Positions 27,486 through 56,206 of a stretch of 64,000 nucleotides of DNA are shown one piece after another. Numbering within the stretch: the stretch's first letter is position 1; the number at the start of each line of letters is the position of its first letter. Location of the stretch: positions 806,001-870,000 of the forward strand of contig NZ_AP022620.1 of assembly GCF_010731855.1 (NCBI RefSeq), read 5' to 3'. Source of the stretch: Mycolicibacterium anyangense. GTDB taxonomy: Bacteria; Actinomycetota; Actinomycetes; Mycobacteriales; Mycobacteriaceae. The position numbers were made by a program, and so were the translations under genes. The notes under the pieces are model-generated. The model made no database searches. It was given only the letters and a program-made list of their open reading frames with translations, and was not told the DNA's origin.

Positions 27486-27569
27486 CGCCAAATATCGGGG
27501 CGCCGTGCCGGCGGACCCGCAGAGTTCAGTGGACGGTCGAAGATTCGGAATTCGATGAGGAATGGTGCG

Positions 27570-28037
27570 ATGCCAACACAGCGGGATGTCACGGACGTCG
27601 ATGATTCGGAGTTGGTGCTCCGTTTCCCCGGCGAAGCGATCACACACGACAACAAGGCCCACTATCGTGGCCGGCTGCAGCACCGCCTCCTGATCAATCG
27701 ATGCGCCGATTGCGGGACGTGGCATCATCCGCCCAAGCCGCTATGTCCCCAATGCTGGTCTGGAAACGTCGAGCCGACTGAAGTCAGCGGCGCGGGCGTC
27801 ATCCACCTCACGGTGATCCTCCATCAGGGACCGCCCGCGGAGGGGGTTGACTACTCGACCCCGTATCCGGTTGTTGCGGTGGATCTCGATGACGCGCCAG
27901 GGGCCCGTTTCACCGCTGCCGTGGTCGGCGCGCAGAACTGCGACGTCACCATCGGGCGCAGGGTGAAACTGGATTGGGCTACCCGCGCAGGAAGCCCGAT
28001 GCCGGTATTTCGGATCGAGTCCGAGGAGAAGGTGTGA
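27570..28037 (+). CDS. DUF35 OB-fold protein with intact zinc ribbon
   Basis: 155 residues. The rubredoxin-like ribbon is intact (RCADCGTWHHPPKPLCPQC, four cysteines) and is followed by the OB-fold (SGAGVIHLTVILHQ to GRRVKLDWATR). ATG 27570 is preferred because GAGG lies nine bases upstream; an ATG at 27555 is possible. The stop overlaps the GTG of the thiolase-like gene. Such pairs form aldolases or acyltransferases (the ChsH2 DUF35 domain with Ltp2 is the studied case). Confidence 0.88.
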   Translation: MPTQRDVTDVDDSELVLRFPGEAITHDNKAHYRGRLQHRLLINRCADCGTWHHPPKPLCPQCWSGNVEPTEVSGAGVIHLTVILHQGPPAEGVDYSTPYPVVAVDLDDAPGARFTAAVVGAQNCDVTIGRRVKLDWATRAGSPMPVFRIESEEKV

Positions 28038-29203
28038 GCACGACAAACCCTTTGCGGCACAAGGTTGCAATCGCCGGTGCTGCGAGCACGGGATTCACCG
28101 CTGCCAATACGCCGATGTCTCAGACCGCATTGGCCGCCCGGGCCTGTGTCGAGGTGATACGGCAATGCGGGCTCACCGCCGACGACATCGACGGGATCTG
28201 CGGATCCACTCCGTCGTCAGCCGAACTGCAAGCAGCGCTGGGCATTCCCCGTGCCACTTGGGTGGCGAGCCCGTTCATCCCGTTCGGCAATCACGTCGCG
28301 GCCGCCGTCTCGGCCGTCTACAGCGGCCTGGCCGAGGTGGTCCTGGTGTATCACGCTGCCTATCGGCTGGCGTGGAACACCGCGTCGTCGTTGAAGGACC
28401 CCTTCCGCCGGATCGCCACCCCGGGATTGACGGAACCGCACCCCGGTCCGGAGACGATGGCCGCTTCGGTGGGATACACGGCGTGGGCGTCGCGGTACAT
28501 CCACGAATATGGCGCTGGCAAAGAGGATTTCGGTTTGGTCGCCATCAATGACCGATCCAACGCAGCGATGAACCCGCTGGCCGCTATCCACAAGCCCATC
28601 ACCATGGACGACTACTTCGCAGCACGGATGATCCGGGAGCCGCTGTGCCTGCTGGACATGGATCTGCCGGTCGACGGTGCAGACGCATTCATCGTCACCA
28701 GTGCTGAGCGCGCACGCGACCTACCGCTGCCGCCGGTCCTGGTGGATGCCGTGGTGCTCGGCCAGGTCGGCCGCAACGAAGAGGACCAGATCGCCGGCCT
28801 CGGTGAGCACGGCCAGCAGGTCGTGGTCGATGCACTGAAGGCCAAGAGCGAATTCTGGATCGACGACGTCGATGTCTATCTCCCCTACGACGGGTTCACC
28901 ATCCTGACTTTGTCCTGGATCGAGAACGCAGGCTGGTGTGGCCGCGGGGAAGCGGGTGACTTCCTGCGGCAGCATTGGGACCCGAAGACCAATCGGGTAT
29001 TGATCGATGGTCGGGTTCCGATGAACCCGCACGGAGGATCTCTCTCCGAGGGCGCCACGCAGGGCTCCGGTCACGTGCGCGAGGCGGTCCACCAGTTGCA
29101 GGGGCTGGCTGGCGAACGTCAGGTGGCCGATGCCCAGCGCGCCTTGGTGACACCAGGTGGGTTCTTCTTCAACGCGCAGGGCATCACGCTGACCCGCGGC
29201 TGA
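28034..29203 (+). CDS. Thiolase-like (Ltp type) enzyme
   Basis: 389 residues, GTG 28034 overlapping the DUF35 stop, with GGAGAAGG upstream. Thiolase-fold landmarks include LTADDIDGICGSTPS, DRSNAAMNPLAAIHKP, DVDVYLPYDGFTILTLS and PMNPHGGSLSEGATQGSGH. The nucleophilic cysteine position is not a cysteine (PFIPFGNHVAAAV), so classical thiolysis is unlikely; retro-aldol cleavage with the coupled DUF35 partner is a reasonable guess. The next gene is a true thiolase. Confidence 0.87.
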   Translation: MSTTNPLRHKVAIAGAASTGFTAANTPMSQTALAARACVEVIRQCGLTADDIDGICGSTPSSAELQAALGIPRATWVASPFIPFGNHVAAAVSAVYSGLAEVVLVYHAAYRLAWNTASSLKDPFRRIATPGLTEPHPGPETMAASVGYTAWASRYIHEYGAGKEDFGLVAINDRSNAAMNPLAAIHKPITMDDYFAARMIREPLCLLDMDLPVDGADAFIVTSAERARDLPLPPVLVDAVVLGQVGRNEEDQIAGLGEHGQQVVVDALKAKSEFWIDDVDVYLPYDGFTILTLSWIENAGWCGRGEAGDFLRQHWDPKTNRVLIDGRVPMNPHGGSLSEGATQGSGHVREAVHQLQGLAGERQVADAQRALVTPGGFFFNAQGITLTRG

Positions 29204-30534: not shown

Positions 30535-31545
30535 TTAGCCCAGAGCTCTCAGGCCGTGTGCGACGAACTCCGGAACCGTTGCTCCGGCGTCGAGTTGGCC
30601 GGCGCCCGCCTCGGCACCGTGACGGGCCCGGTGCGCGATGCCCTCAGCGATCACTGCGATCTTGAGGCAGGCCAGGCCGATGTAGAACCCCCAATCGGAA
30701 AGGTCGCGCCCGGAGACGTGAGCGTATCGCTCTGCGATGGCGTCTGCGGTGGGTAAGCGGGGGCTGGTCCAGGCCGCAGCAGTGCCGATCACTGCGTCGA
30801 ATTCGGGCATCCGGTAGACACACATCAGGGCCAGGTCAGTCAGAGGGTCACCGAGTGTCGACATCTCCCAATCGAGGACAGCGCGGACCGTCGACACGGC
30901 CGCTGGGTCGAGGATCGTGTTGTCCACCCGGAAGTCACCGTGGATGACCGACGAGGTGCTGTGCGAGGGGACGCGGTCGGCCAGTCGGTTGGCCAGCGTG
31001 TCGAGGTCGGCGATCTCGCGGGACTTCACCCGCTCCCACTGTCGTACCCACAAGGCCACCTGCCGGCTGGTGAAACCGTCTGGGCGGCCGAAGGTTTCCA
31101 GCCCCACCGACGTGTAGTCGACGGAGTGGATCGAGACCAGGCAGTCGACCAGGGTGTCGGTCAGGCTGCTGATCTTGTCGTCGGTCAGGCCGCTCAGGTC
31201 GTCTTGACTGCGAATCACGGTCCCGTCGACAAACTCCACGATGCTGACCGGTACGCCCAGTGCCGAACCGTCAGGGTCACAGGCCACCGCCGCTGCAATG
31301 GGCACCACGGTACCGCTCAGCGCCTTGGTGACGGTGAATTCGCGGGCGACGTCATGTGCTGACGGGGTGAGGCCGCCAAGGGGCGGTTGTCTCATCACCC
31401 AAGTCGAGACCCCGTCGGAGACCTTGTGGGTCAGGTTGGATCGTCCACCACTGATGAAGTCAGCGTGCAGATCGCCGGCAACGTCAACGCCGTTGTCGCA
31501 GAGGAACTGTCGCAGGGTAGCAAGGCTCACGCCGCCGGCGCTCAT
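30535..31545 (-). CDS. APH-type kinase paired with acyl-CoA dehydrogenase
   Basis: 336 residues. The N-lobe has GGRSNLTHKV and VMRQPPLGGL; the catalytic loop is VIHGDFRVDN (about residue 200) and the metal-binding aspartate is in VLDWEMST. ATG 31545 overlaps the dehydrogenase stop by 4 bases, so the two are co-translated. The arrangement equals the fused kinase and dehydrogenase halves of animal ACAD10/ACAD11, where the kinase phosphorylates a 4-hydroxyacyl-CoA. A longer open frame to 32289 is antisense-like noise. The substrate is inferred, not shown. Confidence 0.9.
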   Translation of the reverse strand: MSAGGVSLATLRQFLCDNGVDVAGDLHADFISGGRSNLTHKVSDGVSTWVMRQPPLGGLTPSAHDVAREFTVTKALSGTVVPIAAAVACDPDGSALGVPVSIVEFVDGTVIRSQDDLSGLTDDKISSLTDTLVDCLVSIHSVDYTSVGLETFGRPDGFTSRQVALWVRQWERVKSREIADLDTLANRLADRVPSHSTSSVIHGDFRVDNTILDPAAVSTVRAVLDWEMSTLGDPLTDLALMCVYRMPEFDAVIGTAAAWTSPRLPTADAIAERYAHVSGRDLSDWGFYIGLACLKIAVIAEGIAHRARHGAEAGAGQLDAGATVPEFVAHGLRALG

Positions 31546-32747
31546 CGGGCCTGCACCGCGTTGCGGGCAGCCCGCACCCGCCGCTTGGCCAGCGCCCAGC
31601 GGTGGACCTCGGAAGGGCCGTCGTAGACGCGGAACGGCCGAACCTCCCGGAGCAACCGGGCAATCGGAAGGTCCTCCGAGACACCCATGCCGCCACACAT
31701 CTGTACCGAGCGGTCGACGATGCGGTAGATGGCCTCGGCGGCAAAAGTTTTCGCAATTGACGTCGACTCCGCTGCGGCATCCCCCTGGTCGAGTTCCCAG
31801 CACGCTCTCACCAGCAGAGCACGGGTGGCAGCGATATCGATCTCGTTGTCGGCGATCATCTGCTGGATCATGCCCAGATCGCCCAGGCGCGCACCGAACG
31901 CCTCGCGATTGGCGACATAGTCCAGCGCGACATCGTGGGCTCGGCGCGCGGCACCCAGCCACCGCATCACATGGGTCATGCGTGCCGGTCCCAACCTCAC
32001 CTGTGCATAGCTGAAGCCCTGGTCGACCTCGCCGAGTACCGCATCCGCACCGACCAGGACGCCGTCGAACTTCACCTCGCAGTGTCCGCCCAGCATCGAA
32101 TGATCCAGAGTGGCGATGTGGCGCCCGACGGAGAGGCCGGGCGTCTGCGCGGGTACCAGGAACATCGTCGCTCCGCCGCGTTGACCGGGTTCGCCGGAGG
32201 TACGGGCCATCACGATGAAGAATGCCGCGCCATCGGCTCCGGTGATGAACCATTTGTGTCCGGTGATCCGCCAGCGATCGCCGGTCCATTCGGCTCGGGT
32301 ACGCAGCGCCGCCGGGTCCGAGCCGGCCCCCGGAGCCGGCTCGGTCATCGCGAAGGCGGAGCGCACCGCACCGGTGGCCAGTGGGGCCAGAAACTCCGCT
32401 CGTTGTGCGGCGCTGGCCACGTGCGCCAGCAGATGCACGTTCCCTTCGTCTGGCGCAGCGATATTGAGCGCGGTCGGGCCGAACACCGAATAGCCGGCCG
32501 CTTCGAAGACAGGCGAGCGATCCGACATATTCAGGCCGAGTCCGCCGTACTCGACGGGGGCGTGTGGTGCAAACACGCCGGCAGCCTTCGCCGCGTCCTG
32601 GAGCTCGCGCCGGATCGCGTCACCGCCTGCGGCGCTGATATCGCCGTGGTATCGGTCGTCGATCGGAAGCACGGTCGTGGACACGAACTGCTCCGTGCGC
32701 TCGACCAGGTCCATGACGTCCTGCCGATAGGACAAGTTTACTGTCAT
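31542..32747 (-). CDS. Acyl-CoA dehydrogenase, ACAD11-like (FadE)
   Basis: 401 residues from ATG 32747, with TTGGAG five bases upstream. FAD/substrate-binding signatures: FAMTEPAPGAGSDPAALRT and RWRITGHKWFITGADGA; the C-terminus has QMCGGMGVSEDLPIARLLRE and then the YDGPSEVHRW segment. The GP(S/D)EVH form is typical of ACAD10/11-like enzymes. With the coupled kinase it may convert a phosphorylated hydroxyacyl-CoA to an enoyl-CoA. Divergent from the XRE-TetR regulator at 32888. Confidence 0.93.
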   Translation of the reverse strand: MTVNLSYRQDVMDLVERTEQFVSTTVLPIDDRYHGDISAAGGDAIRRELQDAAKAAGVFAPHAPVEYGGLGLNMSDRSPVFEAAGYSVFGPTALNIAAPDEGNVHLLAHVASAAQRAEFLAPLATGAVRSAFAMTEPAPGAGSDPAALRTRAEWTGDRWRITGHKWFITGADGAAFFIVMARTSGEPGQRGGATMFLVPAQTPGLSVGRHIATLDHSMLGGHCEVKFDGVLVGADAVLGEVDQGFSYAQVRLGPARMTHVMRWLGAARRAHDVALDYVANREAFGARLGDLGMIQQMIADNEIDIAATRALLVRACWELDQGDAAAESTSIAKTFAAEAIYRIVDRSVQMCGGMGVSEDLPIARLLREVRPFRVYDGPSEVHRWALAKRRVRAARNAVQAR

Positions 32748-32824
32748 GTGCTGCTCCAATGCTGTGTCCCGAGTGATCGCTCTGTATCCGCGAATTCTGC
32801 TGAGGCTGGCATATCGGCTATGTT

Positions 32825-42148: not shown

Positions 42149-43387
42149 TCAGAACAGGTCGCCGCCGGCTGCCCTGGCCGTGGTTCCGGTGGCCTCGAAC
42201 GCCTTGATCACGCTGCGCCCCACCGTCCAGCGGTGTACTTCGTCGGGTCCGTCGACGATCCGGTTCATCCGTGCTTCCGCGAGCCAGGCAGCCAGGGGGA
42301 GATCGTGGGAGTATCCGAGTGATCCGTGAATCTGCAGAGCGGTGTCGATGATCTCGATGAGCATGTTGGCGATATAGGTCTTGGCAATGGAGTTCTCGAT
42401 CCGCAGATCAAGCCGGCGCTCCATCTTGTAGGCCAGGTGCAGGATCATCAGGCGGGTGATGTAGAGCTTCTCGGCGCAGTCGGAGAGCATCCACTGGATT
42501 CCCTGACGGTCGGCCACCCGCTTGCCGAATGTGACTCGCTCACAGGCTCGCGCCGCCGCCATATCGAGAGCCGCTTGGGCTTTGGCGACACTCCACATGC
42601 CGTGCCGCAACCGACCGTATCCAAGGCGGTGCTGACCCATGGCGAAACCCTGCCCGAGTCCACCGAGGATGTTCTCGTGGGGTACTACCAGGTCGTTGAT
42701 TCGCACCTCGGCGTGACCCATCTGGACCTCGTCCCGATAGTGCGGAATGTCGCTCTCACCCATGATCGGGATATTGCGGACGATCTCGAAGCCGTCACTG
42801 GGCAGCTCGACCAGGAAGGTGGTGTACTGCTGATGGCGCGGAGCGTCGGGATCGGTCTTGGCCATCACCAGTGCCAGTTGTGAGATGGAAGCGCCTGAGG
42901 TGTACCACTTTTCACCGTTGAGAACCCAGTTGTCTCCCTCGCGGACGGCGGTGGTCTGCATACCCGTCGCGTCGGCGCCCGCCGCCTTTTCGGTCATGGC
43001 GAAGCACACTCGGATGTCACCGTTGACAAGCGGTACCAGGTAGCGCTGCTTCTGCTCCTCGGAGCCGTGTTCGATGAGGGTGAGCATGGTGGCGTCCTGC
43101 GGCCCCATGCAGTTCATCGCCCAGGCGCCAAGGTGACTGAACGATCGACCCACCTCGACCTGGACCACGGCATTGGCCAAGTGGCCCAGTCCCATTCCGC
43201 CGTACGCGACGGGGACAAATGGGCACCATAGACCCTCGGCGCGCGCCTTGTCCTGAACCTCGGCCACGATGTCGAAGAAGGGGCGGGTGCCAATCTGCGG
43301 CTCTGCCGGCAACACCACATCGTCGATGAACGAGGCGACCCGAGCGCGCAGCTGCTGGATCTCGTCGGGCATGTCGAAGTCGATCAT
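42149..43387 (-). CDS. Acyl-CoA dehydrogenase, ACAD11-like (FadE)
   Basis: 412 residues from ATG 43387; an upstream start at 43426 would run through the operator and is rejected. Signatures: CFAMTEKAAGADATGMQTT, WVLNGEKWYTSGAS, ALQIHGSLGYSHDLPLAAWL, and RIVDGPDEVHRWTVGR, the DGPDEVH form typical of ACAD10/11. Divergent from an APH-type kinase gene whose promoter shares the palindrome at 43407, which suggests joint control and joint function in removing a hydroxyl group from a hydroxyacyl-CoA. Confidence 0.93.
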   Translation of the reverse strand: MIDFDMPDEIQQLRARVASFIDDVVLPAEPQIGTRPFFDIVAEVQDKARAEGLWCPFVPVAYGGMGLGHLANAVVQVEVGRSFSHLGAWAMNCMGPQDATMLTLIEHGSEEQKQRYLVPLVNGDIRVCFAMTEKAAGADATGMQTTAVREGDNWVLNGEKWYTSGASISQLALVMAKTDPDAPRHQQYTTFLVELPSDGFEIVRNIPIMGESDIPHYRDEVQMGHAEVRINDLVVPHENILGGLGQGFAMGQHRLGYGRLRHGMWSVAKAQAALDMAAARACERVTFGKRVADRQGIQWMLSDCAEKLYITRLMILHLAYKMERRLDLRIENSIAKTYIANMLIEIIDTALQIHGSLGYSHDLPLAAWLAEARMNRIVDGPDEVHRWTVGRSVIKAFEATGTTARAAGGDLF

Positions 43388-43406
43388 GTGGCATAGACTG
43401 ACAGGA

Positions 43407-43436
43407 TTGACAGTCAGTGTCAACATCGGTTAGCTT
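43407..43436 (+). promoter_or_regulatory. Symmetric operator overlapping divergent promoters
   Basis: TTGACAGTCAGTGTCAA (43407-43423) is a palindrome with one mismatched pair. Its left arm TTGACA is a perfect -35 box for the plus strand, followed by an 18-base spacer, -10 TAGCTT (43431-43436) and, six bases on, the ATG of the kinase gene. The right arm gives TTGACA on the minus strand toward the FadE gene. A repressor bound here would block both. The TetR gene two genes downstream is the natural candidate. Confidence 0.6.
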
Positions 43437-43442
43437 CGGGAA

Positions 43443-44477
43443 ATGGCCTCCGCCGCAGTGGCACTCGAAGTCGACAAACTCGACTCCTGGATCGGTGATC
43501 GGCTTCCCGGACAGGGCATCCCGATGACCAGTCAGCGAATCGGTGCCGCCACCGGCATCGCCAACGCGTTGTTCCGGGTGTCGCGCGGCGAGCACGCATG
43601 GATCTTGCGCCGGCCACCGGCGGTCAAGAATGATCCCAGCGCCTCGAACACATTGCGGGAGTGGCGCATCCTCCAAGCGCTCGAGGGCACTGCGGTGCCG
43701 CATCCGGAGCCAGTGCTCTACTGCGACGATATCGAGGTACTCGGTACCGAGTTCATGCTGATGGGCGTGGTCGACGGTTTCACACCGGGCTTCGAACTGC
43801 CGGAGCCGTTCTCGAGCGACCCCGCATTGCGATTCGACCTCGGCATGGCCTACGTGGACGGCTTGGTGCACCTGGCCGCAGTGGACTGGCGGGGAGCCGG
43901 CCTCGATGATCTCGGCAAGCCGGACGGGTTCTTGGAGCGGCAGGTGCCGCGATGGCTCGGCCAGCTGGATCGGTACCGGACCCGCGAGCTGCCGGAGCTG
44001 GACTTCCTCTCATCCTGGCTGACGGCGAACAGGCCCGCCATGAGTCCGGCGGCCATCATGCACGGTGACTACAGCCCATTCAACGTCATGGTTGCCCCGG
44101 AGCCGCCGGCTCGGCTGGCCGCGATCGTCGACTGGGACACCGGAACCATCGGCGATCCACTCCTGGACATCGGACACCTGCTCGCGCGGTGGACCGAACC
44201 TGGCGAAGATCCCGTCATCATCACGCAGGCAGGTGGTGCGACCGGGTACCCCAGCCGACGGCAGATGGCTGCGCGCTACGCCGAACTCAGCGGGCGAGAT
44301 CTCACTTCGCTCCCGTACTACCAGGCACTGGCATTGTTCAAGCTGGCGGTGATCCTGGAAGGGTCCCATTCACGTCAGGTCAAGTCGGGTATCGATCCCG
44401 ATCGCACCGACATGGGACCGCGGGTGATCCGTCTCCTGGCCGGGGCGGCGGAGTTCGCTCGCGGCCAGCGCGTGTGA
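43443..44477 (+). CDS. APH-type kinase, acyl-CoA dehydrogenase partner
   Basis: 344 residues from ATG 43443, probably leaderless. The N-lobe contains ANALFRVSRGEHAWILRRPP; the catalytic loop is IMHGDYSPFNVM (about residue 205) and the metal site IVDWDTGTIGDP. Divergent from an ACAD11-like dehydrogenase with a shared operator. By analogy to ACAD11 and bacterial LvaA it may phosphorylate a hydroxyacyl-CoA for later elimination. Followed by TetR and two SDRs in one probable operon. No resistance function is implied. Confidence 0.9.
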   Translation: MASAAVALEVDKLDSWIGDRLPGQGIPMTSQRIGAATGIANALFRVSRGEHAWILRRPPAVKNDPSASNTLREWRILQALEGTAVPHPEPVLYCDDIEVLGTEFMLMGVVDGFTPGFELPEPFSSDPALRFDLGMAYVDGLVHLAAVDWRGAGLDDLGKPDGFLERQVPRWLGQLDRYRTRELPELDFLSSWLTANRPAMSPAAIMHGDYSPFNVMVAPEPPARLAAIVDWDTGTIGDPLLDIGHLLARWTEPGEDPVIITQAGGATGYPSRRQMAARYAELSGRDLTSLPYYQALALFKLAVILEGSHSRQVKSGIDPDRTDMGPRVIRLLAGAAEFARGQRV

Positions 44478-46737: not shown

Positions 46738-47613
46738 CTAGCTCGAATCGGCTTTCAGTTCGAGTAGTCGCTCCACTACGGATGGGGGAGTCCGCAGTCC
46801 GCAGGTAAAACCCAGCCAGGCCGGTGCAGCGTCCAGCGCCGGCCAGGACAAATCACTGCGTGTCCACATCAGCGGCGTGAGCGCGGGCATTGTCGCGAAT
46901 CCGCGCCCCTCGGCGATAGCGGTCAGCATTCCCGACACCGAGTTGGTCTGTCGCGAGTAACGACGGCGTCGCCCATTGCTTTGGGGATCCAGCCCCCAAA
47001 ACCGTGCTGCGGACGTCGAAAGTGTGGAGCCAACGACCGCTCGCTCCCCATCGAGGTCTGCGGCGGTGACGCCGTGCAGTGCGGATAGCCGGTGTTCGTT
47101 CGGGAGCACCGCAACCCGAGGTAGGGGCACAACAGGAATTTCCTGAAGGTCGGCGGTCGGCCCCGGGATCAGTGCCACCACCGCGTCGAGGTTCGCCGAG
47201 CCCAAGGAATTGCCGGTGAAGGAGTCGCGCCAACTGACGCGCCGCAGCACGATTCCGGTCTGTGTGAAGGCGTGATCGGCTCGCGCGAGCAGGCGATGCA
47301 GCTCGATGACCGGTGGCAGCGGCGGTATTCCGATAGCTACCGCCCCTGTTCGTCCGGTGTGCCGGGCCATCAGAACACCGCGTCCGAGATGAGCGAAGGC
47401 GATCTTGGCCTCGGTGAGCAGGGCCAGGCCCGCATCGGTGGGTTGGGAGGTGTGGCCGGCTTCGGTGGTCAGTAGTGGCACTCCGACCGAACGTTCCAGC
47501 CTGCGCAGGGCTCTGGATACGGTCGCCGGTGTCATCTCCAGATGTCGTGCCGCCGCGCGTATCCCACCGGCATCAACGACCGAACTGAAGATGTGCAAAT
47601 CGCCCAAGTCCAC
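46738..47613 (-). CDS. LysR-family regulator
   Basis: 291 residues, GTG 47613. The winged HTH spans residues 1-60 (AAARHLEMTPATVSRALRRLE), and an effector domain with the usual alternating alpha/beta pattern follows. Divergent from the large CrtC-like gene at 47682 across a 68-base gap with a T-N11-A-type dyad, the classic LysR arrangement, so that gene is the probable target. Confidence 0.92.
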   Translation of the reverse strand: MDLGDLHIFSSVVDAGGIRAAARHLEMTPATVSRALRRLERSVGVPLLTTEAGHTSQPTDAGLALLTEAKIAFAHLGRGVLMARHTGRTGAVAIGIPPLPPVIELHRLLARADHAFTQTGIVLRRVSWRDSFTGNSLGSANLDAVVALIPGPTADLQEIPVVPLPRVAVLPNEHRLSALHGVTAADLDGERAVVGSTLSTSAARFWGLDPQSNGRRRRYSRQTNSVSGMLTAIAEGRGFATMPALTPLMWTRSDLSWPALDAAPAWLGFTCGLRTPPSVVERLLELKADSS

Positions 47614-47681: not shown

Positions 47682-48743
47682 ATGACAACGATGTTTACTT
47701 CGACGCTGGGAAGTTTCGAGTGGCAAGCCCTCTGCGGCGGGTTCACTCCCGAACTCGGCGATATCGCCGCCGAACGTGGATTTTTTGGTCTCAAGCCTGA
47801 AGGCATCTATGTGTACGGAACATTCCGTACCGCCGACGGCGATATCCACACCCCTGCGCGCCGGCTGCCGTTTGGATCCGATAAGGGCGACGCCGGTGTC
47901 AGCGGGGACATGCGATTGTCGATGGGGCGGCGGTTGGCCGTTCAAACCACCAAGGACAGCCCGGACGGTCAGCAGCACTTCGACGTCGCCGCGATGCGCG
48001 CGTCGGCCAGTGGCGCCGGCCTTCTTGTCGACCGGACATCCGACGCCGTCGTGTACCGGGCGTCCGGTGACCGCGACATGCTTGTCGAAGTCTCGCCGTC
48101 CGCGCTGCACTGGCGCGAAGAAGATGTGCTGGATCTGCAGGGCGAACTGGTGGGCTCGGGGCTGCACTGGTACCTGCCGGGACGCGACCTCGGCATGTAC
48201 TACACGTCGCAGATCTACGAGGTGGCGGGAACGATCTACGGCGAGAAAGTCACCGGCTTCGTCCCCTTCGATCCGGTCTACATGGCCGACGGTGCTGCGC
48301 TCTATGCGGAGAAAGACATCCTGGAAGGCGAGCAACTCTGCTTGACGTGGTACACGTGGGGCACCCGCTGGGACGATGGCACCGTCGAGGTTGGCCATAC
48401 GCTGTCCGGACACGACCAATTCGGCTTGTGCGTCGCCACCGATGCTGACGGGCTGACCGTTCAGACCAGCAACGTCGAAGCTGAGTATGAATGGGCGCCA
48501 AATGAATACAACGTGGAGCGGGTCGCTTTCGACGTAGACGGCGAGCCCTGGGAATTCGTCGCCGATCCCCGGGGAGTTCAGCCCGATATGGGGCGGATTC
48601 CCAATCCTCAACAAGAGGGGCTGATGCGGAGGGTGGGCGACACGAGGAAGCCGGTGCACTGGTCGTCCTGGGGCGAGGCGAACATTGCCTACCAGCCGCC
48701 GCGCCGGCGCCGCTTCACCACCGCACGGTCAGCACGACTTTAG
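47682..48743 (+). CDS. Large beta-rich CrtC-like protein A
   Basis: 353 residues, ATG 47682, no signal peptide or membrane helix. It is clearly paralogous to the protein at 50671: both contain (E/S)xGLHW(Y/H)LP, YYxSQ(I/L)YEV, TWYTWxTR and xGHxxxGHD, and both end with DPRG, PNPQxEG and DTRxPVHW. Repeated aromatic strand segments suggest a two-domain lipocalin-like beta fold as in CrtC hydratase or AttH-type proteins, but I cannot name the family with certainty. Divergent from LysR with an operator between. A hairpin terminator follows at 48799. Hydration, isomerisation or binding of a hydrophobic substrate is a guess. Confidence 0.8.
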   Translation: MTTMFTSTLGSFEWQALCGGFTPELGDIAAERGFFGLKPEGIYVYGTFRTADGDIHTPARRLPFGSDKGDAGVSGDMRLSMGRRLAVQTTKDSPDGQQHFDVAAMRASASGAGLLVDRTSDAVVYRASGDRDMLVEVSPSALHWREEDVLDLQGELVGSGLHWYLPGRDLGMYYTSQIYEVAGTIYGEKVTGFVPFDPVYMADGAALYAEKDILEGEQLCLTWYTWGTRWDDGTVEVGHTLSGHDQFGLCVATDADGLTVQTSNVEAEYEWAPNEYNVERVAFDVDGEPWEFVADPRGVQPDMGRIPNPQQEGLMRRVGDTRKPVHWSSWGEANIAYQPPRRRRFTTARSARL

Positions 48744-48798
48744 GCCCGTCGCCACGCACGGCTGCCTCGGGCCAGAGGTCCGGGCTTCAGCCTCGCAT

Positions 48799-48845
48799 CC
48801 TGACCGCGGTCTTCAGTGGATTGTTCACTGAAGGCCGCGGTCAGG
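48799..48845. terminator. 20-base-pair hairpin, probable terminator
   Basis: The arms 48799-48818 and 48826-48845 pair over 20 bases with one G-T-type mismatch and a 7-base loop. It lies 56 bases after the stop of the gene at 47682. There is only a short T run (CGTTT), as is common for mycobacterial terminators. It could also be a processing site. Confidence 0.7.
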
Positions 48846-48964
48846 CGTTTCCGGCCACGGTTGTTGTGTTACCCCATCGGTGATGGTCACATCATTCAGG
48901 CGATTGGTCATCGTCTCGGTAGCAGCAGTACTGGAGTGATGTCATCTGACCAATCTGCTCATTA

Positions 48965-48981
48965 AGATTAATTATTAATCT
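48965..48981. promoter_or_regulatory. Perfect 17-base AT-rich palindrome
   Basis: AGATTAAT-T-ATTAATCT, an 8+1+8 perfect inverted repeat made almost only of A and T in a high-GC genome, 147 bases before the SnoaL-like gene at 49128. Too AT-rich for chance here; a strong candidate operator for a regulator such as the MmyB-like, LysR or another protein. Confidence 0.6.
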
Positions 48982-49127
48982 ATGCTCGCAGCATGCGGAC
49001 GATGCTCTGTTTGACAGCCCGATACGGGGCGCGCAGACCGATCCGTACCGGCGTCATTGACGTGGACTCATAGTTGCCAATTGGGCCGGCACGGGCGCGG
49101 CGTAGCTGGCATATGAGAAGGAGCACG

Positions 49128-49589
49128 ATGATCAACATCCAACCGTCACTTGAGGCCGTCGCCGACATCATCGCGATCAACCACCTGGCAGCTTCCTATT
49201 CGGAGGCGATGTGCCGCTTTGAAGTGGAAGAAGCGGTCCAGACCTACGCTCAGGACGGCGTACTCTCGACGCCCACCACGGCGGACGCCATCGGCCGGGC
49301 TGCCATATTCGAAACGATATCGAAGACGGTATCCACGCTGGACTTCGTCTTCCAGACCCTGCACCAGGGGTTGGTCGAGGTCGATGGGGACCGAGCGACC
49401 ACCAACTTTCCCATTACCGAATGGGCGCGGACATCCAAGGATCAGAGAGGCATCCTGTTCCTGGGGGTGTATCGCGATGACGTAGTGCGCACACCCGAGG
49501 GTTGGAGATTCGCCCGCCGCAGGCTCCTTCCTCGGCTCATGGGTAGGCCCGACTTCCTCACGGGCACACTGCACGACATCTCACTGTGA
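49128..49589 (+). CDS. SnoaL-like (NTF2-fold) protein
   Basis: 153 residues from ATG 49128 after AAGGAG; the upstream in-frame GTG/ATG at 49074/49113 are less well placed. The opening helix ADIIAINHLAASYSEAM, the YAQDGVLSTP strand and the late WRFARRRLLPRL fit the NTF2-like fold of SnoaL, ketosteroid isomerases and bile-acid dehydratase BaiE. It may be a dehydratase or isomerase, or a ligand-binding protein. It stands alone in its transcript with its own AT-rich operator. Confidence 0.85.
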   Translation: MINIQPSLEAVADIIAINHLAASYSEAMCRFEVEEAVQTYAQDGVLSTPTTADAIGRAAIFETISKTVSTLDFVFQTLHQGLVEVDGDRATTNFPITEWARTSKDQRGILFLGVYRDDVVRTPEGWRFARRRLLPRLMGRPDFLTGTLHDISL

Positions 49590-49694
49590 CCCCCGCTGTC
49601 GTCATGGAGTTATTCGCTGGCCCAGGCGAAGGGGTCCAACGGCGCCAGCACCGTGCTGCATGGCGGACAGCTGGCGCTGTCGCACGTTCCCGAC

Positions 49695-50561
49695 CTATCG
49701 ATCTGACGTCACGCGCGCGTCCCACGTGGCAGATCCGCGAATCTGCTCGAGCTTGCGGAGATCTGCATCGGTCGCCGGCTGGTGGATGATCAGTTTCAAT
49801 GAAGGTCGGTCCAGCAGTCGCAGCTGCATCAGGTGGGTGGTGAGCACCCCGACGGCCGGATGGCGGAATGATTGCGCTCCGCCCGCGGCACGCACCACCT
49901 CGTGGCTGGACCACCACTGCCGGAATTCGGCACTGAGAGCGGCTAATTCATTGGCTATCGACCCGAACTGGGGGTCGGTAGGGTGCGCGGCGGCTTCTGC
50001 GCGGAACTGGCCGACAACACGGCGGGCGTGTCCCTCCCAATCCACTAGGGAGTCACGCACGCCCGCAACGGTGAACGTCGCCCACAACACATTGCGGCGG
50101 TCTGCGGGTAAGGCTGAGACGTCGCAGAACACTGCCGACAGCGCGTCGTTCCAGCCCAGATAGTCCGACCGAGGCCCCAGGATGTAAGCGGGCGCCGGCA
50201 ACTGGCGGGCCAGCAGCCGACGGGTGGGCTCGTCGACCGATTCGTCATGGTTGTCCGAAGCGCCCAGCGGAAGCGCAGCGAGTCGGCGAAGGTGGCGGTG
50301 TTCGTCATCGGTAAGTTGCAGCGCATCGGCGATGCTGTCGATCACCTCGACGGTGGCATGGATGTCTTGTCCCTGCTCAAGTCGGGTGTACCAGCTGTAG
50401 CTCACCCCAGCCAGGTTGGCAACTTCTTCACGCCGGAGACCACGAACCCGACGGGGGCGCAGGCCAGCGCGCAGACCTGCCTGCTCTGGCGCCAACGCTG
50501 CCCGCCGCGCACTCAGGAACGCCGCAAGTTCGCGGCGCCGTTGCTCGGAGTCTGACGCCAT
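49695..50561 (-). CDS. MmyB-like XRE regulator
   Basis: 288 residues from ATG 50561 (ATG 50570 would add three). The N-terminal HTH has the family signature LRREEVANLAGVSYSWYTRLEQGQDI. The rest is the MmyB-type ligand-binding domain (PAYILGPRSDYLGWNDAL, then RRNVLWATF and the DPQFGSIANEL region), a PAS-like domain thought to bind fatty acids. Convergent with the SnoaL-like gene and divergent, across about 110 bases, from CrtC-like protein B, which it probably controls. Confidence 0.92.
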   Translation of the reverse strand: MASDSEQRRRELAAFLSARRAALAPEQAGLRAGLRPRRVRGLRREEVANLAGVSYSWYTRLEQGQDIHATVEVIDSIADALQLTDDEHRHLRRLAALPLGASDNHDESVDEPTRRLLARQLPAPAYILGPRSDYLGWNDALSAVFCDVSALPADRRNVLWATFTVAGVRDSLVDWEGHARRVVGQFRAEAAAHPTDPQFGSIANELAALSAEFRQWWSSHEVVRAAGGAQSFRHPAVGVLTTHLMQLRLLDRPSLKLIIHQPATDADLRKLEQIRGSATWDARVTSDR

Positions 50562-50670
50562 GCCGCCCATCCTGCCAAACCCCATCGCGCCGGTCTGGGC
50601 TATCACTCACAGTGGTAGCACCAGTCCGGTCTTGTTGCGCGATGCGCTGGGCCCGCACACTCGCTTCACC

Positions 50671-51687
50671 ATGACTACGACATTCGACACGTTGTCCGGG
50701 CGCGGACAGTTCCACTACCAACTGGTGCTCGGTGAACACAACAGTGACCCGGCAGAGGTTGCAGCACAACGCGACTGGTTCGGGCTGCCCTGGTCGGCCC
50801 TGTTCCTTTATGGCAGTCTGCGCGATGACGAGGGCCAGCTCTATACGGTCCTTCGAGTACCGGAACGTAACGGCGGCGGACGTAAGCGCTTCTATCTGCA
50901 AACAACACTCGGCGCCGACGATCTGCACGTCCACGACGCCAGCAGGGGATCGGCCCGCAACGAGGGTTTCGTCCGTCAACACCGCGACGGCGTCACCACG
51001 ATCTACAGTCCGTCGGACTCCGATGGTCAACCATTCAGGTTCGAAGTCGATGCCACCACATCGTCATGGTCCGAGGCCGGCACGATGGAGCTGCACGGCA
51101 CCTTGGTGGAACCAGGCCTGCACTGGCACTTGCCGTCGGCTTCGGGCGGTGTCGACGAGGGCTACTACTACGTGTCCCAGCTCTACGAGGTTCGCGGTCA
51201 GATCCTCGGGCGCGACGTTCACGGCTTCTACGGCGCCGACGACCTGTACGCCAACGGCCTGATCTACCAGGACGACCTCTTGGTCGGCAAGAAGTTGCAC
51301 GTCACCTGGTACACCTGGGCGACGCGCTACGCCGATGGCTCCTTGGATGCCGGGCATTTCATGCTCGGCCATGACGGCCTCGGCATGCTCCTCCTGTGTG
51401 ATCAGGACGGCCGGGTGCGTCGTACCACCCATGTGGACGGCTTTGTCGAACTCGACGAAACGGGAACGTGGCCAACCCGTATCGAGGTTCACGCACCGGG
51501 GGAGGACTGGGAGTTCCTCCCGGACCCGCGGGGACGAATGGTCGACTTCATGCCGATGCCGAACCCCCAGATCGAGGGCCGCTGGCGACGAATCGCCGAC
51601 ACCCGACAGCCGGTACATTGGTTCGCCTACGGCGAGATTGCGCCGTCGCACGGATTAGTGCCCCGCAGCGGCGCTCTCGGCGCGTGA
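50671..51687 (+). CDS. Large beta-rich CrtC-like protein B
   Basis: 338 residues from ATG 50671, where similarity to protein A begins (MTTTFDTL versus MTTMFTSTL). It has the same conserved blocks: EPGLHWHLP, GYYYVSQLYEVRGQILG, HVTWYTWATRYADGS, GHFMLGHDGLG, LPDPRGRMVDFMPMPNPQ and DTRQPVHWFAYGE. It lacks a signal peptide. The longer open frame back to 50416 is antisense to the regulator gene. It ends two bases before an APH-type kinase gene, so the two are one operon with the following genes. Function unknown; see protein A. Confidence 0.8.
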   Translation: MTTTFDTLSGRGQFHYQLVLGEHNSDPAEVAAQRDWFGLPWSALFLYGSLRDDEGQLYTVLRVPERNGGGRKRFYLQTTLGADDLHVHDASRGSARNEGFVRQHRDGVTTIYSPSDSDGQPFRFEVDATTSSWSEAGTMELHGTLVEPGLHWHLPSASGGVDEGYYYVSQLYEVRGQILGRDVHGFYGADDLYANGLIYQDDLLVGKKLHVTWYTWATRYADGSLDAGHFMLGHDGLGMLLLCDQDGRVRRTTHVDGFVELDETGTWPTRIEVHAPGEDWEFLPDPRGRMVDFMPMPNPQIEGRWRRIADTRQPVHWFAYGEIAPSHGLVPRSGALGA

Positions 51688-51688
51688 T

Positions 51689-52741
51689 GTGTCCACCCTC
51701 GAGTACTTCGAAGATCGGCGCCAGGCTCTTGCTGACTGGATTGCATCCAAGAATCCGCACGCTGACAACGTCGGCTTGAGCTCCTTTACCCCGGCGAGCT
51801 CGGGCTTCTCCAATGTCACCCTGTTCACTGATCTGACCTGGAGTGACGCCGGCGGACAGCAGCGTCGGGAGCTGGTCTTGCGGGCCGTTCCCCCGTCCCA
51901 AACCCTGTTCCCGGATGACGACCTCCATCTGCAGTACGACGTGATGGCAGCGCTGCGCGATACGCCCATCCCGGTACCCCAGTTGGCCTGGTATCTCGAC
52001 CGCACCGACGTCCTGGGTGTGCCGGCGTTCCTGATGGACCGGGTGCGCGGCGAGGTGGCCTCCGGCTACCGGCCCGGCTTCCACGGTCACGGCCTGTTCT
52101 TCGAGGCCACTGTCGAGCGGCGCCGGCAGATGTGGTTTGCGGCAGTCGATGTGATGGCCGACCTGCACCGGCTGGACGCTGCGTCTCTGGCGCTGCCGGC
52201 ATCGATGGGGTCGCCCGCGAATGGGCGCGAGGCGATCGGTGCCATCCTGGCCCGGATCGAGACCCAGCTCGATTCGACCGACGCTGACGTCCCGGTGCTG
52301 TGGCAAGCCCTCGATCGGGTGCGCACCACGATGCCTGAGGACATCGACGTGGTGCTGTGCTGGGGTGACGCCCGGCCCGGGAACATCATCTACCGCGACG
52401 GCCAGGTGGCCGCCGCACTTGATTGGGAGCTGGCGCATTACGGTGCGCCGGAGGGTGATCTGGCGTACTTCTTGCTGGTCGATAAGGTTGTCGCCGAACT
52501 CAACGACGTCCCAAGGCTTTCCGGACTCCCGGACACCGACGAGACCATCGACTACTACCAGCGGGCACTCGGCAGGCCGATCCAGAACCTCGAGTATCAC
52601 CGGATTCTGCAGGCCTTGAGAATGGCGACCATGTTGGTCATGACCGTGCAACTGAGCCCGCCCGAGCTCGAATTTCCACCCAACTATCTGACCGAGAATG
52701 TCCCCACCCGCAGGCTCGCGCACCTCATGCGCGTCCACTGA
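51689..52741 (+). CDS. APH-type phosphotransferase
   Basis: 350 residues, GTG 51689 just after the CrtC-like stop. N-lobe LVLRAVPPSQTLFPDDD; the catalytic loop is CWGDARPGNIIY (the histidine of the H-x-D motif is replaced by tryptophan) and the metal site ALDWELAHYGAPEGDL. W-G-D is also seen in animal ACAD10/11-like kinase domains and choline kinase relatives, so activity is not excluded. No acyl-CoA dehydrogenase is adjacent; its partner may be elsewhere. Operon: CrtC-like B, kinase, CrtC-like C, thioesterase, ligase. Confidence 0.9.
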   Translation: MSTLEYFEDRRQALADWIASKNPHADNVGLSSFTPASSGFSNVTLFTDLTWSDAGGQQRRELVLRAVPPSQTLFPDDDLHLQYDVMAALRDTPIPVPQLAWYLDRTDVLGVPAFLMDRVRGEVASGYRPGFHGHGLFFEATVERRRQMWFAAVDVMADLHRLDAASLALPASMGSPANGREAIGAILARIETQLDSTDADVPVLWQALDRVRTTMPEDIDVVLCWGDARPGNIIYRDGQVAAALDWELAHYGAPEGDLAYFLLVDKVVAELNDVPRLSGLPDTDETIDYYQRALGRPIQNLEYHRILQALRMATMLVMTVQLSPPELEFPPNYLTENVPTRRLAHLMRVH

Positions 52742-52758
52742 ATCATGATCGGAAACTC

Positions 52759-53931
52759 ATGACCGACGTCATCCTCACCGCCGCAGACGAATACCTGAAC
52801 CACCAGATGGTGGCCAGTTTTGAACAGGTCGGCACAACTGACCGCAACTGGACGGAGAAGGGCTACATCGTCGCCTACGACGTCTCCGGCGAGATCATGG
52901 TCACCGCCGGGATCGGCAAGTACAGCAACCGCGACGTCATGGACGGCTTTGCCGGGGTCGCGGTCCCCGGCAAGCAGTACAACGTGCGTGCAACTCGCGA
53001 GCTACGCCCCGAACTGGACCGCACCGTCGTCGGTCCCATCTCGTGGGAGGTGGTGCATGCACCAAGTCACAACCGAATCATGTTGGCGGAGAACGAACTC
53101 GGCGTCAGCTATGACGTCACCTACGAAAGCGACTTCGCGCCGATCGTCGGGGCGCCAGGGGAACGCCGAGACCGGGGGATCACCGGGAACCACACGATCC
53201 GCTACTTCCAGCCGGGCCGCGCCAGCGGCACCGTCACTGTCGAGGGTCGCACTTACCGGTTGGATCCCGACCGCAGCTATGCCTATAAAGACCGATCGTG
53301 GGGAATCCGGACAATGTCGGGAATCCCCAACCCCAACTCGTTCTGGTTCAACGACCCGTCGGCGGCGCCCGAGACCGGGCTTCGTCCCGCTCCGGGGCAC
53401 GGCGAGGGCGTGCTGCACGGGTACCTGAACTTCAGCTTCGGCAGCTGGTGCCTGTCATCGACGTTCACTCAAGGCCCCGATGGCCGGCCCATGAAGTCGA
53501 GTACCGGTAGCACGGAGGGTTTCATCGCCTTTGCCGGCACCAACCGGCCGCGCCTTCGGATCGCGAACCTTGAGCTGGACTTCGAGTTCTGGCCAGGAAC
53601 CCGTCGGGCCAAGTCGCTCCACGCGCATGCCGAGCTCGAGGACGGAAGCACTCGCGACATCACGTGCACGTGGAAGGACCTCGTGTACTACTTCCGTGGC
53701 GGCGGCTATTTCGGTTTCCGCGGTTGGTGGCAGGGTGGCTACCGCGGAGCGCTCGACGTCGGAGGTGAGGTCATGGACCTGCGGAACAAGGCAAACCTTG
53801 ACGAGCTGTACGGCTGCGAGGAGATCGCCGTCGACTGCGTGTGCGGGGAGGAGACCGGTCATGGGGTGATGGAGCCGTGGGCGATCGGTTCGCTGCCGCG
53901 ATACGGCATCACCGAAGACACCCTCGGATGA
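52759..53931 (+). CDS. CrtC-superfamily-like protein C
   Basis: 390 residues from ATG 52759. A two-domain beta-rich protein with repeated aromatic strands. Landmarks are RSYAYKDRSWGIRTMSG (a D-R-S-W-G-x-R motif seen in CrtC/AttH-like carotenoid hydratase relatives) and YFRGGGYFGFRGWWQGGYRG. It has no signal peptide. It is more distantly related to proteins A and B but has the same general composition and operon. Possible roles are hydration or cis/trans handling of a lipid or terpenoid. The stop overlaps the thioesterase gene by 4 bases. Confidence 0.78.
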   Translation: MTDVILTAADEYLNHQMVASFEQVGTTDRNWTEKGYIVAYDVSGEIMVTAGIGKYSNRDVMDGFAGVAVPGKQYNVRATRELRPELDRTVVGPISWEVVHAPSHNRIMLAENELGVSYDVTYESDFAPIVGAPGERRDRGITGNHTIRYFQPGRASGTVTVEGRTYRLDPDRSYAYKDRSWGIRTMSGIPNPNSFWFNDPSAAPETGLRPAPGHGEGVLHGYLNFSFGSWCLSSTFTQGPDGRPMKSSTGSTEGFIAFAGTNRPRLRIANLELDFEFWPGTRRAKSLHAHAELEDGSTRDITCTWKDLVYYFRGGGYFGFRGWWQGGYRGALDVGGEVMDLRNKANLDELYGCEEIAVDCVCGEETGHGVMEPWAIGSLPRYGITEDTLG

Positions 53932-54566
53932 GCGCTGACCAGGAACACCTGGTTGGTGTAGTCAACGGACTGGCCAACGCGATCCGCACCGCCGAGATCC
54001 CGGCTCAGCACGTGTCGCGAATCAGTAGCGCTCTAGAGCAGGCGCGCGCGATGATCGACGAGCATATCGTGCCTCCGCCGTATGCCGTCGAGCAGCTGGC
54101 CCCGCCGAACGTGGCTGTGTTGCAATGGGATCCAGACGACCTGTGTAGCACAGTTCCCTACAGCCCGTTCCTCGGACGCCTGAACCCGATCTCGGGAGAC
54201 GCAACGCTGCGGGCCGAGGGGGCGACCCTCTCTGGAACAATCAGATTGTCGCCGATCCACGCCGGACCCATCGGGATGGCACACGGCGGCGTGGTAGCGG
54301 CGCTGCTTGACGAACTGACCAGCATCGCGGTGATGACACACGGACGTTTCGGCTACACCCGGACCCTGACGGTCACCTACCTGCGGCCGACGCCGCTGGA
54401 TGGGGACCTATCGTTATGGGCCCAGTCCGCCGGCCACCTCGGCTCCGGATACCTGACGTCGGCGGAGATCCGCAGCGGCGGCAAGGTGACTGCATCCGCA
54501 GTTGCGGTGCATCATCCGGGCGGACGCGTCGATGAACCGATCTACCCGGATACAGTGACTCGATGA
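53928..54566 (+). CDS. PaaI-type hotdog thioesterase
   Basis: 212 residues, ATG 53928 overlapping the previous stop, itself overlapping the ligase start by 4 bases. The hotdog domain fills residues 85-200 with the active-site region MAHGGVVAALLDELTSIAV (the HGG turn and helix acid). The N-terminal 80 residues are a helical extension as in the gene at 15787. Hydrolyses an acyl-CoA in the same operon as the ligase that would make it, or rescues CoA. Confidence 0.88.
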   Translation: MSADQEHLVGVVNGLANAIRTAEIPAQHVSRISSALEQARAMIDEHIVPPPYAVEQLAPPNVAVLQWDPDDLCSTVPYSPFLGRLNPISGDATLRAEGATLSGTIRLSPIHAGPIGMAHGGVVAALLDELTSIAVMTHGRFGYTRTLTVTYLRPTPLDGDLSLWAQSAGHLGSGYLTSAEIRSGGKVTASAVAVHHPGGRVDEPIYPDTVTR

Positions 54567-56206
54567 CCAAGAGTCATGGCGGTTCGCCCTCCTTGACGCT
54601 CGCGGAGCTGGGGCCGGACACCGAAGAACAGGCCGGCTTGTCCTATCTCAGGCTGACCGACGCCGCCGAATTGACCCGAGCGACCGTCGGTCAAACATTG
54701 CTACGGGTGGCCTCGGAGCGCCCTGATCAGCCTGCACTGATGTGGCTGACCGAGACCGGCGTCGAGGAGATGACCTGGGCGGAATTGACAACCAAGGCGT
54801 CGGCCGCCGCCCACGAACTCAGCCGGCTCAGCCCCGCCCGCGAGCGAGTGGTGGTGCTCGGGGGCAACTCCGTGGACTGGATCGTCGCTGTGTACGGAGC
54901 CAGTCTTGCCGGTATGCCGGTGGTGCCGCTGAGTCCCGCGACGACCGTCGACGAGATCACTGCTGTCTTAGGAGATTTCGCAGTCGCAGGCATCCTGGTC
55001 GGCGACAGGTCGGGCGACGGTGTGCTGCGTGATCGTGCCATTCGGGCGTGCTCGGCAGCAGGATCCGAAGCTCAGGTGCGCGTCATGGGTGATTGGCCAC
55101 CGGGGCCACGATTCGCCATCTGTGAGTCAGCGCGCGCTGACGACGAATTCCTGGTGCAGTACACCTCTGGAACCACTGGTCGTCCCAAGCCGGCGAGTCT
55201 GTCGCACCTGGCGGCACTGAACGCGGGACGATTCTTCGCCGAAGGGACCGGTACCCGCGCCGGCGAGGTGTGGCTCAATCCGCTACCCCTCTACCATGTG
55301 GGCGGACTAGTCTCCGGCCTGCTGTCGTGTCTGTCGATCTCGGCGACTTACGTTGTCGTCGAGCGGTTCTCGGCCGAGGTTGCACTGCGCGCTGTCCGTG
55401 AGACGCGGCCGACCTTCATCGGAATGGTTCCGACAATGCTGATCGACTTACTCGATCAGCCCGATGTGGCGCCCAATGACTTCGCATCGGTGCGCACGGT
55501 GCTCGGCGGCGCCACGGACGTCGACCCCGCGCTGGTTTCCGATGTCGAACAGCGACTTGGTATCCGGTTCAACATCGCCTACGGGCAGAGCGAAGCGCCC
55601 TGCATGACGATGACATGGTCCTCGGACTCGGCGGACGTGCGCACTCGCTCGCTGGGGCATCCACTGCCGGGCCGCGACTACTGCCTGGTCGATCCCGACG
55701 GGGTGGTGCTGGCGGTCGGTCAGCCAGGGGAGCTGTGTGTCCGAGGACCGTTGAACATGTCGGGCTATGTTCGGGCCGGCGGTCAGGTGGACCCTGACAC
55801 CAGTGGCGCAGGATGGCGGCGAACCGGTGATATCTGCGTCTTGGACGATGCGGGAATCCTGCACATGCGTGGACGGTCCCGCGATCTGATCATCCGGGGT
55901 GGAACGAACATCTATCCGGCCGAAGTGGAGCAACAACTGTCCGCCCACCCCGCGGTGCGCGAGGTCGCGGTTTTTGGTGTGCCCGATCGCCGCCTCGGCC
56001 AGAAGGTGGCTGCTGCGGTCATTCCCGTCTCCGGGATGACGGTCGACCCGGCTGGTCTGGATACCTTCGCTGAGGAAGTCCTCGGTCCCAGCAAGCGTCC
56101 GACCGCCTGGCTCATCCTCGATGAGTTCCCGCGCACCGCGTCCGGTAAAGTGCGCAAACACGTTCTGCAGCAGTCGATCACGCCGGGTGGTGTGGAGAGC
56201 GCTTAG
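54563..56206 (+). CDS. AMP-forming acyl-CoA synthetase (FadD-like)
   Basis: 547 residues, ATG 54563. ANL superfamily motifs: A3 QYTSGTTGRPKPASLSH, A5 NIAYGQSEAP, A7 GWRRTGDICVLDDAG, A8 RGRSRDLIIRGGTNIYPAEVE, A10 PRTASGKVRKH with the catalytic lysine. It activates a carboxylate as acyl-AMP and then acyl-CoA. Last gene of the CrtC-like/kinase/thioesterase operon and therefore probably the entry enzyme of that pathway; the substrate is not readable from sequence. Confidence 0.94.
   Translation: MTKSHGGSPSLTLAELGPDTEEQAGLSYLRLTDAAELTRATVGQTLLRVASERPDQPALMWLTETGVEEMTWAELTTKASAAAHELSRLSPARERVVVLGGNSVDWIVAVYGASLAGMPVVPLSPATTVDEITAVLGDFAVAGILVGDRSGDGVLRDRAIRACSAAGSEAQVRVMGDWPPGPRFAICESARADDEFLVQYTSGTTGRPKPASLSHLAALNAGRFFAEGTGTRAGEVWLNPLPLYHVGGLVSGLLSCLSISATYVVVERFSAEVALRAVRETRPTFIGMVPTMLIDLLDQPDVAPNDFASVRTVLGGATDVDPALVSDVEQRLGIRFNIAYGQSEAPCMTMTWSSDSADVRTRSLGHPLPGRDYCLVDPDGVVLAVGQPGELCVRGPLNMSGYVRAGGQVDPDTSGAGWRRTGDICVLDDAGILHMRGRSRDLIIRGGTNIYPAEVEQQLSAHPAVREVAVFGVPDRRLGQKVAAAVIPVSGMTVDPAGLDTFAEEVLGPSKRPTAWLILDEFPRTASGKVRKHVLQQSITPGGVESA

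Follow-up and report, generated by a model that had tools for sequence, protein, structure and literature searches.

A probable kinase-phospholyase route for dehydrating a hydrophobic alcohol, encoded beside two AttH/CrtC-type paralogues in Mycolicibacterium anyangense

The region analyzed here (the window) is a stretch of 64,000 nucleotides of Mycolicibacterium anyangense, located at positions 806,001 to 870,000 of contig NZ_AP022620.1 (C1:806001-870000), which is the only contig of the 5.70 Mb genome. It carries a cluster of six open reading frames (ORFs) that had been pointed out in a sequence-only reading and were all found in place; we designate them by their first positions. Five of them follow each other on the forward strand and code for a 338-aa protein with a predicted AttH/CrtC fold (50671..51687), a small-molecule kinase of the aminoglycoside phosphotransferase (APH) fold (PF01636; 51689..52741), a 390-aa Rv3169-family protein homologous to 25-phosphosteroid lyase (25-PSL; 52759..53931), a hotdog-fold thioesterase (PF03061, 33.5 bits vs. 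a cut-off of 20.6; 53928..54566) and an acyl-CoA ligase (PF00501 and PF13193; 54563..56206). Because they are spaced by only +1, +17, −4 and −4 bases, these genes look like one operon starting with 50671, which agrees with the operon proposed before. The sixth ORF, a 353-aa paralogue of 50671 (47682..48743, forward strand), belongs to a separate transcript, and both transcripts have their own regulator, as had been claimed: a LysR-type gene (46738..47613, reverse strand; HTH_1 and LysR_substrate domains) is divergent to 47682 with a gap of 68 bases, and an MmyB-like gene (49695..50606, reverse strand; PF17765, E 1e-44) is divergent to 50671 with a gap of 64 bases. A small SnoaL_4-like protein (49113..49589, forward strand; PF13577, E 4e-17) is encoded between the two transcripts.

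The product of 52759 scored 266.9 bits against the Rv3169-family profile (curated cut-off 150), and its predicted structure shows the fold of 25-PSL over nearly the whole chain. An alignment of its family (A2), made from 33 of 35 matches and the window protein, contains the Asp of the DRSWG motif (Asp178) in all 34 rows, and this is the residue differing between the structures 9fzn and 9g4c. No paper on the 25-PSL structures was found in a literature search that mostly left out subscription journals, so one may exist. The nearest relative of 52759 outside its own genome is from a Mycobacterium (91% identity), and relatives of less than 60% identity occur in 24 plasmid records, none of them a near copy. 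Weak matches of the A2 profile to toxin repeat chains were judged to be due to chance, and the structural model gave a single match at E ≤ 0.001 in a viral structure library (a Tupanvirus soda lake orfan; E 2.5e-4, TM 0.20/0.33).

The kinase encoded by 51689 has an intact motif, WGDARPGN...LDWE, whose pattern fits 44 of the 47 kinase matches of at least 200 bits. Its best relatives in the PDB are 3ats (E 1.6e-31) and 9fsg (E 4.7e-30), while ACAD11 was matched at E 1.9e-10. The sequence of 3ats is the same as that of 3ATT, the code listed for Rv3168 of Mycobacterium tuberculosis in a figure legend of PMC3691515. By its length (379 residues vs. the 43.3 kDa given in PMC8449060), we guess that 9fsg is the kinase of Sterolibacterium denitrificans.

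The proteins encoded by 47682 and 50671 are indeed paralogues (36% identity, E 3e-63 by BLASTP) and are here called family A1, whereas 52759, which had been taken as a third relative, did not match either of them significantly by BLASTP and reached a profile-profile probability of only 0.5%. The likeness of 50671 to 52759 is visible in the fold alone when predicted structures are compared; the model of 50671 has the two-barrel AttH/CrtC fold in common with AttH NE1406. The earlier description as CrtC-like, beta-rich proteins for hydrophobic substrates holds at the fold level for 50671 and 52759 and extends to 47682 by homology only. Neither A1 protein of the window matched a Pfam family at E ≤ 1 or any NCBIfam model, and among 66 A1 members no CrtC or AttH Pfam model was listed, five of them matching DUF7064 (best 4.4e-5). 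Searching the PDB sequences with the A1 profile gave three matches at E ≤ 10, which we judged as chance, and none of 47682, 50671 and 52759 matched PHROGs at E ≤ 0.01. Plasmid records contained relatives of 50671 in four cases, all below 60% identity and without a near copy.

In an alignment of 64 of the 112 A1 matches together with both window proteins, Asp190 is present in 65 of the 66 rows and replaced by Glu in the remaining one. It shows the G-x4-D spacing of the catalytic Asp of CrtC, to which it may correspond by position, and the residues R51, R62, E281, R312 and E322 are invariant in all 66 rows. One might regard 47682 and 50671 as non-catalytic, lipocalin-like binders handing over a hydrophobic substrate to other enzymes, as the two-barrel fold predicted for 50671 is shared with NE1406, for which PMC2954199 uses the term lipocalin-like and suggests a role in lipid metabolism. 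The near-invariant Asp190 and the five invariant charged residues argue against mere binding, which we consider possible but unlikely. Rather, the two proteins are probably further AttH-fold enzymes of the pathway, which would act as proton-transfer catalysts via Asp190. Of the hydrating, isomerizing or carrying functions suggested previously, 52759 has more probably a catalytic one than that of a carrier, whereas 47682 and 50671 may have any of the three or act as a second lyase.

Genes matching the Rv3169-family profile were found in 38 of 61 genomes of the Mycobacteriaceae and in at least 49 of 396 genomes of a wider phylum sample, the latter value being possibly low since up to four candidates were scored per genome. 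We analyzed 29 loci of either set, one per genome and chosen by the best match, and detected a kinase on the same strand within about 1.5 kb of the lyase gene in 26 of the 29 Mycobacteriaceae loci. The kinase of L116 was counted through a partial match of 47 bits. A Pfam scan of 20 neighboring frames selected by their size, which came from all kinase-negative loci of the two sets except L113 and L117 (19 of 21), identified four more kinases, while the other 16 frames contained none. For comparison, a kinase gene was present anywhere in only 6 of 75 A1 loci devoid of a lyase gene (1.44 Mb). In locus L140 (L140:2-2628), the end of a frame carrying a PEP-utilizers mobile domain runs into the lyase-family gene, and a phosphotransferase of a different class may accompany the lyase there.

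The genome of M. anyangense itself contains 31 APH matches, 30 of them above the cut-off, and seven lyase-like matches, two of them above the cut-off. An APH match lies within 700 bases of six of the seven, a number not reached in any of 100,000 random placements (maximum three). These six include a short 133-aa frame, which our own profile missed, and a single protein of 661 aa with EcKL/APH, DUF7065 and DUF7064 domains and an RDHSHG motif (L173:2734-4719, within C1:1302000-1309000), which we regard as a candidate fused kinase-lyase. Open frames of 650 to 676 aa with a similar match were also seen in other genomes of the genus.

A1 proteins are encoded in at least 9 of 251 genomes of the family, including that of M. 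anyangense, with the reservation that up to eight candidates were scored per genome and the count may be low. M. anyangense has three copies, the third of which lies about 45 kb past the window (C1:915659-916657, reverse strand; L162). Although a stop codon falls within its match, an open frame of 457 aa there scores 295 bits; the gene is accompanied by relatives of CoA ligases, thiolases and acyl-CoA dehydrogenases, and no kinase or lyase match was detected in the surrounding 20 kb. Among 79 named A1 loci, representing 80 of 112 relatives, four contain a lyase gene of the 52759 family, each with a kinase gene on the strand of the lyase: one from Actinomadura (L022), two from Nocardia (L023 and L037) and one from Novosphingobium (L035). 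The gene order A1-kinase-lyase of the window recurs in L022, L023 and L037, followed by a thioesterase relative in L022 and L023, and an MmyB-like relative is divergently oriented at the same place as in the window in L022 and L037. In L035, the kinase-lyase pair is on the opposite strand and flanked by two A1 genes. Because the six kinase-lyase-linked rows (two from L035) in an A1 tree of 90 rows need four changes, a value as low being obtained in 8 of 500 shuffles, the link appears to recur on separate branches of this tree, in which several branches are long and of uncertain position and the second A1 gene from L023 carries no label. Further frequent neighbors of A1 genes are a CrtO-like FAD oxidoreductase (52 of 79 loci) and a cytochrome P450 (42 of 79), both cluster names being taken from one locus. 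A conserved cluster of loci L084-L100 and related Pseudomonas loci combines an MMPL transporter, a CrtO-like FAD oxidoreductase, a P450, A1, short-chain dehydrogenases/reductases (SDRs), an extradiol dioxygenase and an FAH-like hydrolase; it also occurs in P. abietaniphila and in part in P. citronellolis, and may possibly represent an aromatic-terpenoid pathway.

We consider it likely that the operon 50671-56206 serves to dehydrate a hydrophobic, isoprenoid- or steroid-like substrate in two steps at the expense of ATP, removing a hydroxyl group that is probably tertiary or otherwise unactivated. The kinase 51689 would phosphorylate the hydroxyl group, and 52759 would then eliminate phosphate from the ester via Asp178 to leave a C=C bond. 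Because of their homology, both enzymes should treat some hydrophobic alcohol in the same way as a 25-hydroxysteroid. The ligase and thioesterase genes of the operon suggest that this compound also carries a carboxylic acid group, the CoA ester of which they would make and break, and 50671 and the separately regulated 47682 may contribute a hydratase, an isomerase or a second lyase. The previous remark that this was not a recognized pathway is only half correct, as 52759 and the kinase resemble the 25-hydroxysteroid kinase/25-PSL pair.

Several observations weigh against this interpretation. Only about 25% identity connects 52759 with 25-PSL, so its substrate and even its leaving group could differ, and the assignment of 9fsg as 25-hydroxysteroid kinase is tentative. 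The sequence of 50671 shows no similarity to 25-PSL or CrtC models. In the wider phylum sample, a kinase stands beside the lyase gene (flanks of about 1.5 kb) in only 15 of 29 loci, 11 by our own kinase profile and four by Pfam, and two of these 15 also occur in the family set; L158 and L159 coincide with L106 and L115. Finally, one lyase-like match of M. anyangense (C1:4382106-4382213; L177), as the only one in the genome, has no APH match within 119 kb, the nearest being 120 kb away.

A different substrate would be expected if the kinase, like those of the LvaA/LvaC and ACAD10/ACAD11 systems, acted on a hydroxyacyl-CoA provided by the CoA ligase of the operon, with 52759 replacing an acyl-CoA dehydrogenase as phosphate-eliminating enzyme and a hydroxy fatty acid taking the place of the isoprenoid. 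Phosphorylation and phosphate elimination have been described for 4-hydroxyacyl-CoA (PMC11342911), the operon does contain ligase and thioesterase genes, and the kinase shows the weaker match to ACAD11 mentioned above. However, it is far closer to 3ats and 9fsg (E about 1e-30), no acyl-CoA dehydrogenase gene was detected in the operon by ORF list or Pfam, and two separate pairs of an APH kinase and an acyl-CoA dehydrogenase (FadE) gene in the window (30538-32759, reverse strand, and 42152-44477) could do such chemistry, their make-up fitting LvaA/LvaC- or ACAD11-like reactions as expected; we regard this alternative as rather improbable. A more speculative extension, which we doubt, starts from 50671 as a cofactor-free hydratase converting an alkene to a tertiary alcohol, whose hydroxyl would be removed on the other side by kinase and lyase. 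Two of the three enzymes would then share a fold yet catalyze opposite reactions, and an isoprenoid double bond would be moved, or its stereochemistry reset, at the expense of ATP. That the kinase confers aminoglycoside resistance, with the beta proteins as lipid carriers unrelated to it, is very improbable despite the Pfam APH match and the term putative aminoglycoside phosphotransferase used for Rv3168 in print (PMC3691515), given a score of 22.2 bits against APH(3') (cut-off 205), values falling far short of the threshold for each resistance model matched, 31 APH matches in the same genome and a recurrent neighborhood with the phospholyase homologue even outside the actinobacteria.

The dehydration route proposed here is embedded in what looks from its gene content like a catabolic region between 27 and 62 kb of the window, with genes for a ChsH2-like protein, a lipid-transfer/thiolase protein, a thiolase, two acyl-CoA dehydrogenases, a P450, SDRs, a zinc-type dehydrogenase and several CoA ligases. 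Relatives of several of these genes are located near A1 genes elsewhere (L024, L025, L168 and L169), and those of the ChsH2-like zinc-ribbon/OB protein and the lipid-transfer/thiolase protein following it (27555-29203) both occur in L024 and L025.

The operon appears to combine a known type of enzyme pair with a setting for which our literature search found no description, and with an uncharacterized third family of the same fold. Dehydration of alcohols by kinase and lyase is known from anaerobic sterol degradation, and the same enzyme types recur here in one actinobacterial genome with neighbors of the oxygen-using P450 type, once in a presumably fused form. This offers a concrete, testable function for Rv3169-family proteins, DUF7064/DUF7065 and many genes annotated as aminoglycoside phosphotransferases, and indicates A1 as a partner that may take part in terpenoid- or steroid-type catabolism.

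Among the closest known systems is the 25-hydroxysteroid kinase/25-PSL pair of anaerobic cholesterol degradation in S. denitrificans, which likewise consists of an APH-fold kinase and an AttH-fold lyase. There, the kinase turns a tertiary 25-hydroxysteroid into the phosphate ester, from which a then-unknown lyase makes the alkene (PMC8449060); the lyase is still called putative in PMC11061730. The product of 52759 matches 25-PSL over nearly its full length, including the Asp of DRSWG. In contrast to the window operon, PMC8449060 reports no lyase candidate near the kinase gene, and the window pair is accompanied by P450, SDR, FadE, CoA ligase and thiolase genes and two additional A1 proteins. 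The same two families are adjacent in Rv3168-Rv3169 of M. tuberculosis, which form one operon under the repressor Rv3167c according to PMC5340868, whereas the window operon adds 50671, the thioesterase and the ligase; within M. anyangense, another locus, C1:44788-46814, scores far higher with the Rv3169-family profile (501 bits) than 52759 (267 bits). With regard to A1, the closest known proteins are AttH NE1406, kievitone hydratase, the pericyclases Fsa2, Phm7 and CghA and, by motif, the carotenoid hydratase CrtC, although no Pfam or profile match connects the family with them. LvaA/LvaC and ACAD10/ACAD11 share the principle of a kinase followed by phosphate elimination (PMC11342911), but employ an acyl-CoA dehydrogenase as the eliminating enzyme, in place of which the operon described here provides a protein of the AttH fold.
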